Shown here in pieces: positions 57,546-59,644 of a stretch of 64,000 bases of DNA. The notes under the pieces were generated by a model. That model did no database searches, had not been told where the DNA came from, and saw only the letters and a list, made by a program, of their open reading frames with translations. A program made the translations under genes and the position numbers. How positions within the stretch are numbered: position 1 is the first letter of the stretch; the number at the start of each line of letters is the position of its first letter. This DNA is from Pelagibacteraceae bacterium AG-349-L17 (lineage in GTDB: Bacteria; Pseudomonadota; Alphaproteobacteria; Pelagibacterales; Pelagibacteraceae), in NCBI GenBank assembly GCA_003278805.1, contig QCDC01000008.1:1-64000 (forward strand), written 5' to 3'.

Positions 57546-58036
57546 AAAATTTTTATTTTTGATTTTTTTTTAATCAATTTAACCATAATTAAAAAATCCT
57601 TTTTTTTTAAAGCTATGCATCCTACTGTAGGCTGATAATTTTTTGTAAGATGAATAAAGATACAACTACCCTTTCCAGTGGTAGGTTTACTAAAGTTATA
57701 TTTAATTGGAATTAACAAATCATATTTGTTATCTTTTCTTTTTAATTTTTCATGGCCAATTTTTTTTTCAATTTTAATAAGTTTATTATATTTTTCTGGA
57801 AAACCAATATCATCACACCAACCCATATCTTTTTTAATTTTGATACACTTTAGTAAAGTTAGAGGTTTTTTAATGCGATCTTCTCTAAAATAAAGATTTT
57901 CAATTTCAAAAGTGCCTTTCGGTGTTTTTTTATCACCTTCTTTTTTGTTACTGGTTGAACCTTTTTTTCCAATACAGCACTTAAATTTAAATTCATCTAT
58001 TTGAAGAGTGTGTTTATTTTTTACAAAAATTGTCAT
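57542..58036 (-). CDS. L,D-transpeptidase (YkuD) family protein
   Basis: 164 aa. The catalytic pattern is SCIFIHLTKNYQPTVGCIAL (about 131-150), with the His and Cys of the YkuD active site, although the usual S/T-x-G-C is TVGC and the Arg after Cys-Ile is replaced. Upstream CIGKKGSTSNKKEGDKKTPK and GTFEIENLYFRED match the L,D-transpeptidase-like DUF group. No signal peptide is apparent, which is odd for a peptidoglycan enzyme. Its stop overlaps yggS by 4 bases. Confidence 0.8.
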   Translation of the reverse strand: MTIFVKNKHTLQIDEFKFKCCIGKKGSTSNKKEGDKKTPKGTFEIENLYFREDRIKKPLTLLKCIKIKKDMGWCDDIGFPEKYNKLIKIEKKIGHEKLKRKDNKYDLLIPIKYNFSKPTTGKGSCIFIHLTKNYQPTVGCIALKKKDFLIMVKLIKKKSKIKIF

Positions 58037-58048
58037 ATTCTACTTCTA

Positions 58049-58612
58049 GTGAGTAGTCAGAATATAATAATATATAAGTTTACTGAATTATATCAAATTC
58101 TTGAAGAACTTGGGACAGATTTAAATATTAATGTTGCATTTGAAGATAGAGAGGATCATTTAAATGAAAGAGTAAAAAATTTGAACAAATATTTAATTAT
58201 ATCAAATAAAAATTATCTAGATATTCAAAATCAATTTATTTTGGATAATTTACCAATTAATTTATTTAAATTTATTGAAAAGATAAATATTGAATTTTTA
58301 AAATTGCAATTTAGCAACCAATCTGAAGTGAAAGTAAATAGTTATATTATTGATCTAAATTCTAGAGAGATGTTATCAAAAAATATAAAGCTTAAGTTGA
58401 CCGAAAAAGAAGTAAATACAATTACTTATTTATCAAAATCGGACAAACCAGTCGGTGTTGATGAGTTACAAGAAAAAGTTTGGAGTTATCAATCTGATAT
58501 AGAAACTCATACAGTCGAAACTCACATTTATCGACTAAGAAAAAAAATTTTAAATACATTTAATGATAACAATTTCATAATCAGTAAAAAAAATGGCTAT
58601 CAAATCAAATAA
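58049..58612 (+). CDS. OmpR-type winged-helix regulator with degenerate receiver-like N-terminus
   Basis: About 187 aa from the GTG at 58049; an in-frame ATG at 58001 would overlap the divergent YkuD gene by 36 bases. The C-terminal Trans_reg_C domain is clear: LKLTEKEVNTITYLSKSDKP, VGVDELQEKVWSY, HTVETHIYRLRKKIL and ISKKNGYQI. The N-terminal ~100 residues look like a degraded receiver (EELGTDLNINVAFEDRED, LNKYLIISNK), but I see no clear phospho-acceptor Asp. It is an orphan without a kinase nearby. The 3' end overlaps the arfA-like gene. Confidence 0.75.
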   Translation: MSSQNIIIYKFTELYQILEELGTDLNINVAFEDREDHLNERVKNLNKYLIISNKNYLDIQNQFILDNLPINLFKFIEKINIEFLKLQFSNQSEVKVNSYIIDLNSREMLSKNIKLKLTEKEVNTITYLSKSDKPVGVDELQEKVWSYQSDIETHTVETHIYRLRKKILNTFNDNNFIISKKNGYQIK

Positions 58613-58712
58613 GAAAAATCCAATGGCTAAAGATTTGTTTACTAAAAAGTATAAACCAAAAATAGTTAAACCTAAAAAAGGCAAGGGAAGTTTTAAAAGA
58701 AAGAAAATTTAA
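58593..58712 (+). CDS. arfA: minimal ArfA-like alternative ribosome-rescue factor
   Basis: 39 aa from ATG 58593; an in-frame ATG at 58623 would give 29 aa. The C-terminal core VKPKKGKGSFKRKK matches the ArfA signature KKGKGSYxRK. Against E. coli ArfA as I remember it, an ungapped alignment also matches the Asn 20 residues before KGKGS, a Leu at -14, an aromatic at -9 (Tyr for Phe), basic residues at -8 and -6, and Ile for Val at -5. ArfA recruits RF2 to ribosomes stalled without a stop codon. It overlaps the regulator gene by 20 bases and the pfkB stop by 4. It lacks the long C-terminal tail of E. coli ArfA. Confidence 0.72.
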   Translation: MAIKSNKKNPMAKDLFTKKYKPKIVKPKKGKGSFKRKKI

Positions 58713-59644
58713 ACATAAAGTCTTGCTCCAATTTGCTGAATTACTTTTGATGACATTTCAGTCCCTTTTTCAAGACACTCTTTTGTAGATAATTTGTTGA
58801 TGTATCCGTGTAAAAATCCAGCAGCAAAAAGATCACCTGCGCCAGTGAGGTCAACAATTTTCAAATTTTTTTGTATATCACTTTCAACGACTTCATTACC
58901 ATTAATTGCAACCGCACCTTTTTCCCCTCTAGTTACAATTACTAATTTATTGAGTTGTTTTGAAAAGTTTATAACCTCCTCAAAATTTTTTGCCTCAATT
59001 AATGAGGTAATTTCTTGTTCATTAGCAAAAGTTACATCAAGATTGTTTTTAACTAAGTTTAAAAAATGAGGCTTATGTCTATCTACACAAAATACGTCTG
59101 AAAGTGACATGGCAACTTTGTTGGCATTATTTATAGCTTTATCGAAAGCTTTCTTGGGTTCTCCCTCATCCCATAAGTAACCTTCTAAAAATATTATTTC
59201 ACTTTCTTTAATTGCACCAGAGCTAACATCGTTTTCATTAATTTTTCCTGCTGTTCCTAGGAAAGTACACATCGTCCTTTCTGAGTCTGGAGTTACTAAA
59301 ATTAAACATGTACCAGTTGGTAATTCTTCTTTTTTTTTAGAATAAAAATATTCTACATTTTCATTTTTTAAACCTTCCTCGTATTTACTACCAAATTCAT
59401 CATCAGAAACTTTACCTATGAAACCAACATTATCGCCAAGTTGCGATAATCCAACTATAGAGTTTGCTACAGAACCCCCAGAAACAGTTTTTTCGATTTT
59501 AAGATTAGTTAACAAACTTTTGAATTCTTTTTCATCAAAAAACAACTTCATTGTACTTTTTGTAAGATTATTTTGAACGATAAAACTGTCATCAACTTTG
59601 CAAATAACATCCACTATAGCGTTTCCAATTCCTAAAATTTTCAT
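58709..59644 (-). CDS. PfkB family carbohydrate/nucleoside kinase (adenosine kinase-like)
   Basis: 311 aa ribokinase-fold protein. ILGIGNAIVDVICKVDDSFI opens it, TVSGGSVANSIVGLSQLGDN is the substrate-binding GG segment, GFIGKVSDDEFG and CLILVTPDSERTMCTFLGTA follow, and VDLTGAGDLFAAGFLHGYIN is the anion hole with catalytic Asp. The overall pattern is nearest to the adenosine kinase branch (GNxxxD, DSERTM), so adenosine or a sugar could be the substrate. One base separates it from nth. Confidence 0.93.
   Translation of the reverse strand: MKILGIGNAIVDVICKVDDSFIVQNNLTKSTMKLFFDEKEFKSLLTNLKIEKTVSGGSVANSIVGLSQLGDNVGFIGKVSDDEFGSKYEEGLKNENVEYFYSKKKEELPTGTCLILVTPDSERTMCTFLGTAGKINENDVSSGAIKESEIIFLEGYLWDEGEPKKAFDKAINNANKVAMSLSDVFCVDRHKPHFLNLVKNNLDVTFANEQEITSLIEAKNFEEVINFSKQLNKLVIVTRGEKGAVAINGNEVVESDIQKNLKIVDLTGAGDLFAAGFLHGYINKLSTKECLEKGTEMSSKVIQQIGARLYV

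Follow-up and report, generated by a model that had tools for sequence, protein, structure and literature searches.

Do the SAR11 bacteria, termed the most abundant marine microorganisms (PMC12753301), encode the ribosome-rescue factor ArfA? The factor has been placed only in some beta- and gamma-Proteobacteria by a review (PMC8874680), and a 2024 survey reported none in 2,376 Alphaproteobacteria (PMC11633108). Our literature searches, chiefly of open-access papers and with bioRxiv outside their scope, found no paper naming an ArfA in the SAR11 host. The question is raised by a stretch of 64,000 nucleotides of Pelagibacteraceae bacterium AG-349-L17 (contig QCDC01000008.1, positions 1 to 64,000; hereafter the window), in which an initial annotation had proposed a compact ArfA-like gene at the end of an orphan regulator.

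A 39-codon ORF with a TAA stop lies at positions 58593–58712 on the forward strand and encodes MAIKSNKKNPMAKDLFTKKYKPKIVKPKKGKGSFKRKKI (39 aa). As the initial annotation had described, it overlaps both neighbours: its first 20 nt are shared with the 3′ end of the regulator ORF, and its last 4 nt, at the stop, with the convergent pfkB-like ORF at 58709–59644. A family scan of the regulator (58001–58612) gave no match to a receiver domain. The regulator is the usual upstream neighbour of arfA, is less conserved than arfA, and is kept at 10/10 same-genus loci that lack arfA. The features of the locus are:

58593..58712, forward strand: arfA-like gene, 39 codons plus TAA (ORF, PF03889 match, conservation, synteny and pN/pS)
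58617..58670, forward strand: codons N9 to K26, counterpart of the RF2-facing half of E. coli ArfA (placed by alignment; role as reported in PMC5378476 and PMC6299226)
58674..58700, forward strand: codons K28 to R36, KKGKGSFKR, counterpart of the E. coli mRNA-channel segment (placed with profile A1, see below; role as reported in PMC5378476 and PMC6299226)
58001..58612, forward strand: orphan winged-helix regulator (Trans_reg_C, PF00486, residues 130–201)
58709..59644, reverse strand: convergent sugar-kinase-like ORF (ORF list), for which the name pfkB is that of the initial annotation

The initial annotation had suggested a search with the ArfA HMM. In Pfam, ArfA (PF03889) is the sole family matched by the 39-residue product at E ≤ 10, with E = 4e-6 and 26.6 bits, above the gathering cut-off of 25.5. 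The same search gave no match to DUF7230 (PF23876) and, unlike for ArfB, none to the RF-1 (GGQ) domain (PF00472); NCBIfam returned no match. A phmmer search of the PDB with the single sequence gave five matches, all ArfA, at E-values of 0.29–0.55. We then built a profile of 29 SAR11 orthologues (31 proteins minus two duplicates), termed A1, which at E ≤ 10 matched six sequences of the PDB. Each is an ArfA, aligned without gaps across 32 positions, and the E-values run from 2.3e-6 to 6.9e-6. The gapless match to the E. coli ArfA core noted initially is real, being weak for the single sequence and clear by profile. The ORF is a genuine gene and a homologue of ArfA.

In the register between A1 and ArfA, E. 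coli N14, L20, F25, K33–S38 and R41 correspond to N9, L15, Y20, K28–S33 and R36 of the SAR11 protein; for E. coli residues outside the displayed alignments, the numbers used here are those we take to be correct. As in ArfA, a KGKGS motif is followed by a basic segment. Residues K28, K29, G30, K31, G32, S33 and R36 are invariant across the 29 rows of A1, as are N9, K13 and L15, and the F25 position is occupied by Tyr in 56 and Phe in 4 of the 60 distinct host cores. The hydrophobic patch by which E. coli ArfA binds RF2 has been described as L19, L24 and F25 (PMC5378476). The Leu and aromatic matches claimed initially stand at L20 (L15, invariant in A1) and F25 (Y20, aromatic in 60/60 cores); the places of L19 and L24 are taken by the polar residues D14 and K19, so that the E. 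coli patch is kept only in part. Conservation of KGKGS is no proof of mechanism, since single residues of the motif have been reported as non-essential in ArfA (PMC6299226).

Among 101 relatives, PF03889 matched 55 at E ≤ 10, of which 48 belong to the genus of the window, and 29 scored above the cut-off. As the loose search also gave matches in 8 of 14 control genomes (above the cut-off in one), only strong matches count. At the 30 same-genus loci fetched via the PF03889 family search, the ORF is open in all 30, and an in-frame stop is present in 31/31 loci. Searching 397 genomes from the order with A1 at E ≤ 0.01 gave a match in 301, including 120 of 151 high-quality genomes, and in 11 of 13 genera; genomes whose rows built A1 match it by construction. 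In 281 of the 301 genomes the match reaches E ≤ 1.2e-7. The 20 weak matches come from family f2 (16) and genus g6 (4), and those examined (6 of f2, 4 of g6) all lack KGKGS. Among named genomes, at least 436 stretches encode a relative; 80 were retained, all labelled SAR11.

We analysed selection on 111 loci picked by PF03889 or a KPKKGK pattern. A fixed pattern missed 22 of these; the remaining 89 entered the pN/pS calculation and supplied the 60 distinct host cores. Over codons that overlap neither neighbour in the window, pooled pN/pS is 0.174 (89/111 orthologues) and median dN/dS is 0.109 (1,395 of 3,916 pairs in range), dN/dS being a test that the initial annotation had put forward. The five other frames gave pN/pS of 1.20, 1.80, 1.55, 0.34 and 1.73, the value of 0.34 belonging to an antisense frame. 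The initial annotation had also named what would speak against the gene: an unconserved ORF, frameshifts or stops, or lack of an ArfA match. We found a conserved ORF, intact in the 30 fetched orthologues, and a PF03889 match. The 111 loci cannot reveal how often KGKGS is lost, because of the way in which they were picked; one diverged same-genus member (L226) reads KKGRGS.

Orthologues occur at the same locus in other SAR11 genomes, where the initial annotation had suggested aligning them. The regulator and pfkB are the usual flanks. Counting the window, 24 of 31 same-genus loci have both close to arfA, as do 59 of 80 named loci; one flank alone is close in 7/31 and 19/80, respectively, and neither in 2/80 named loci. 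Among 12 loci from genera g5, g7, g8 and g9, eight have both flanks close by: six of g8 and one each of g7 and g9. Two further g7 loci have the regulator close to arfA and pfkB 1–2 kb off. At the two g5 loci the regulator is found 1.5 kb upstream; pfkB lies 1.6 kb downstream at the first, and at the second is absent or beyond the fetched stretch. For one g7 locus (L290), the position of arfA was taken from the A1 match listing.

Of 12 same-genus genomes without arfA, 10 yielded the pfkB locus, and in 10/10 the site is empty, with the matches to the regulator and pfkB ending 6–42 bp apart; a diverged arfA remaining in this gap was not seen in any of the 10. The A1 match is missing from G102, G103, G106 and G107, one-contig, 99%-complete genomes of the genus, and the gene is therefore dispensable in some lineages. 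Owing to the shared synteny and the empty sites, we read arfA as having probably been inherited in place in the SAR11 family and lost cleanly in some lineages. Separately, three loci of arfA-less genomes (L242, L244 and L245) carry a short ArfA-like remnant (WKKxLFSR...) that precedes a beta-ketoacyl-synthase-like gene; its E-values are 0.07–0.24 and it may be a chance match.

E. coli ArfA is reported to be 72 aa at full length, with a stem-loop in its gene that yields a nonstop mRNA (PMC8012679). Its mature form has been given as 52–55 aa (PMC6299226), and a protein lacking the last 17 residues serves as the active form (PMC4245945). The absence of the C-terminal tail, claimed initially for the window, is borne out across the 111 loci (chosen for KGKGS), in which the protein stops 5–11 residues past the motif. 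In the 72-residue E. coli protein, KGKGS is presumably followed by 34 residues, as counted on the sequence we take to be that of ArfA. About four in five arfA genes carry a hairpin in the 3′ coding region, which is usual and not universal; nonstop expression from such a hairpin is a regulatory trait of the gene and not a definition of the ArfA family. Folding of the last 75 nt, the stop and 42 nt downstream gave no conserved 3′ hairpin, with a mean z of +0.12 against dinucleotide shuffles and 1 of 31 sequences below −2. Because the protein ends just past the channel segment, the ORF has a normal stop and there is no conserved hairpin, expression without a nonstop switch is probable, and a SAR11 arfA free of nonstop autoregulation is plausible.

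The window's genome encodes SmpB and an alpha-type tmRNA (3.2e-67); overall, the tmRNA was found in 52 of 61 genomes searched and in 19/19 of high quality. Its two PF00472 proteins are RF1 and RF2. RF2, a 351-aa frame in L031, contains ISPF and the switch-loop Trp in GWG. At the places of the pocket residues V198 and F217 it has Ile and Phe; these places were assigned by motif on an E. coli RF2 sequence and numbering that are in part presumed. In E. coli, V198 and F217 of RF2 are reported to hold F25 of ArfA (PMC6299226). Among the matches listed, 98 of 101 genomes have one to three PF00472 matches, with three only in G007, where one falls in a frame of 151 aa. In a set of 33 chosen genomes, three occur only in G312, the third being partial. 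No clear ArfB was found among the PF00472 matches listed for the window's genome or its relatives, some of which are incomplete genomes. Compensation by ArfB where arfA is absent was not seen either, as each of the 20 genomes in this set that belong to the genus and lack arfA has one or two PF00472 matches.

We consider it likely, with good confidence, that the locus holds a genuine SAR11 arfA, encoding a minimal, RF2-dependent ArfA that acts as a backup to trans-translation and is probably expressed without a nonstop switch. For rescue activity, RF2 dependence and switch-free expression we infer this from the sequence. When a ribosome stalls at the 3′ end of a broken mRNA, the 39-residue protein would bind it, its basic KKGKGSFKRKK end sitting in the vacant mRNA channel. 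Recruitment of RF2 would fall to the N-terminal half, which contains the aromatic Y20, and the GGQ domain of RF2 would release the nascent chain. SAR11 ArfA would thereby serve as the backup to tmRNA–SmpB, a role held by ArfB in other Alphaproteobacteria, and would probably not be subject to the nonstop-mRNA switch by which E. coli ArfA is kept off.

Other small proteins resemble the product in part. Across 385 genomes of the class, A1 at E ≤ 0.01 matched 18, three of them SAR11. The 15 non-SAR11 matches are mixed: a KGKGS-like end is present in L259, L262, L263, L264 and L266, and the rest end in KKxYxRK or are intermediate. These five carry KGKGS, KGRGS, KGKAS or KGKGA and belong to other Alphaproteobacteria with genomes of 4.3–6.4 Mb, of which G663 is 10% contaminated; they may stem from prophages or contamination. 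Within SAR11, a second small protein, NPMAKLLSS...NKKKIYNRKK, was found away from the arfA site in 5 of 13 arfA-less genomes, while 8 of 13 have neither. Its profile (A2) gave weak or no matches in 15 same-genus arfA carriers, some of the searched rows having built A2; A1 and A2 are related across 26 columns (HHalign, 96.3%). One small protein of genus g6 matches DUF7230 exactly at the cut-off. NPxAKxL...NKKK proteins, with or without the YNRKK end, occur in SAR11 genomes without a KGKGS ArfA (L239, L249–L253, L255; L228, L230, L231, L233; L229, L232, L234–L237) and are possibly a diverged rescue factor.

Relatives are also encoded by phages, at least 180 IMG/VR contigs carrying one, and 10/10 phage representatives score above the Pfam ArfA cut-off. 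None of the window's neighbour genes occurs in the 80 viral loci fetched (up to 5 kb on each side), so host contamination was rejected as the source of the viral matches. The core lies inside a longer, fused ORF in 23 of the 80 loci (L168, L170–L173, L177, L180, L185–L189, L193, L194, L197, L198, L201–L204, L210, L213 and L215); 22 of these encode 121–142 aa, and L177 is cut at the contig end. The one fused protein searched in PHROGs has phrog_2423 ahead of its core and phrog_17747 behind, with a weak match to a head-maturation protease (E 0.017); otherwise the four phage proteins searched hit only families of unknown function. In L148 (4968–5102), L162 (1544–1759) and L224 (4968–5129), arfA lies between a clamp loader gene and the gene of the RegA translational repressor, with other ORFs interposed, an arrangement that is a T4-like replication module; the clamp loader was identified by family scan in L148 and by eye in L162 and L224.

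Among cultured phages, tblastn with the 39-aa protein found nothing. Longer phage queries did match, most of the 86 records having E near 5 and being taken for chance, and 0 of 137 records covered 80% of the fused protein. HTVC027P gp30, named as an ArfA in print (PMC12753301), overlaps the terminase small subunit gene and scores 20.2 bits against PF03889, below the cut-off of 25.5. HTVC034P gp63 carries a hypothetical annotation; it is found close to the gene for the large terminase subunit and scores 25.7 bits, just over the cut-off. The phage side is a wider extension of the host finding that has in part already been reported.

These relatives bear on how the host gene is to be explained. 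The product could be a conserved small basic protein that binds RNA or ribosomes through the ArfA channel motif and recruits no release factor, such as a stalling sensor, a hibernation factor or an assembly factor, similar to the YNRKK/DUF7230-type proteins of the order. The polar residues at L19 and L24 in the RF2-facing half, the related family without KGKGS in the same order and its g6 member at the DUF7230 cut-off fit this explanation, but KKGKGS, R36 and the aromatic residue are all retained in ArfA spacing and the RF2 pocket is kept, and we regard it as unlikely. A chance lysine-rich ORF in an AT-rich genome would suit a frame of merely 39 codons that overlaps both neighbours, and weak PF03889 matches mean little, given those in control genomes; it is ruled out, for practical purposes, by the PF03889 match above the cut-off, the 30/30 open frames, the conserved locus and pN/pS.

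Derivation from a phage, with recent fixation in the host and perhaps continuing mobility, would be consistent with the viral relatives and with the empty sites within the genus. A tree built from 60 host cores and 41 phage cores, which is weak at 28 columns, interleaves the two groups, with 5 label changes, at least 3 of them forced by well supported branches. For 1 of 60 host cores, the nearest other core is that of a phage. However, the gene occupies the same locus in genera g7, g8 and g9 and, more loosely, in g5, the window's neighbours are found in 0/80 viral loci, no identical core is shared by host and phage, and for 0 of 41 phage cores is the nearest other core that of a host. We give recent phage origin only a slim chance, and continue to favour a genuine, RF2-dependent SAR11 ArfA. 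A broader proposal that we put forward tentatively, with more doubt than conviction, is that a distinct ArfA branch, tail-less and without a nonstop switch, is common to SAR11 and marine phages. In the host it would replace ArfB beside trans-translation; several phage lineages would carry ArfA independently (with clamp loader and RegA, with terminase, or fused in proteins of 121–142 aa), which may keep ribosomes free during destruction of host mRNA.

Set against known systems, the SAR11 protein shares with E. coli ArfA (YhdL) a gapless core, KGKGS, the basic end, an aromatic residue at F25, Leu at L20, Asn at N14 and an accompanying RF2 gene; it differs in stopping 5–11 residues past KGKGS, in lacking the 3′ hairpin, in its polar L19/L24 places and in belonging to another class. 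HTVC027P gp30 shares this core and ranked first in a search with a phage ArfA query (68.6% identity, 7e-16), but is a phage gene of 58 aa with an N-terminal extension. RXM g10, also a phage gene, is likened here by its published name alone, ArfA (PMC8953757). ArfT resembles the SAR11 protein in its length of ~40 aa, in regulation reported as not ArfA-like and in its role as a tmRNA backup (PMC6299226, PMC6514570); unlike the SAR11 protein, with KKGKGS and Y20, it is described as having KKGGSTNKK, no hydrophobic residue at the F25 place and the ability to activate both RF1 and RF2. PMC6514570 does not mention phage, SAR11 or Pelagibacter. DUF7230 (PF23876) comprises small NPxAKxL...KYNRKK proteins whose profile is related to that of SAR11 ArfA across 26 columns, yet these lack KGKGS. 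ArfB (YaeJ) has a comparable backup role in Caulobacter (PMC11633108) but is itself a GGQ hydrolase, and none was found in the window's genome.

The SAR11 gene encodes a variant of an established factor, ArfA without its tail, in a clade assumed to lack it. Structural studies could draw on it as a naturally near-minimal ArfA, and it illustrates how short proteins escape searches. Thanks to the phage copies, the idea that phages bring rescue factors into an infection can be put to the test. A minimal ArfA in SAR11, where no ArfB was found, alters the map of ribosome rescue.
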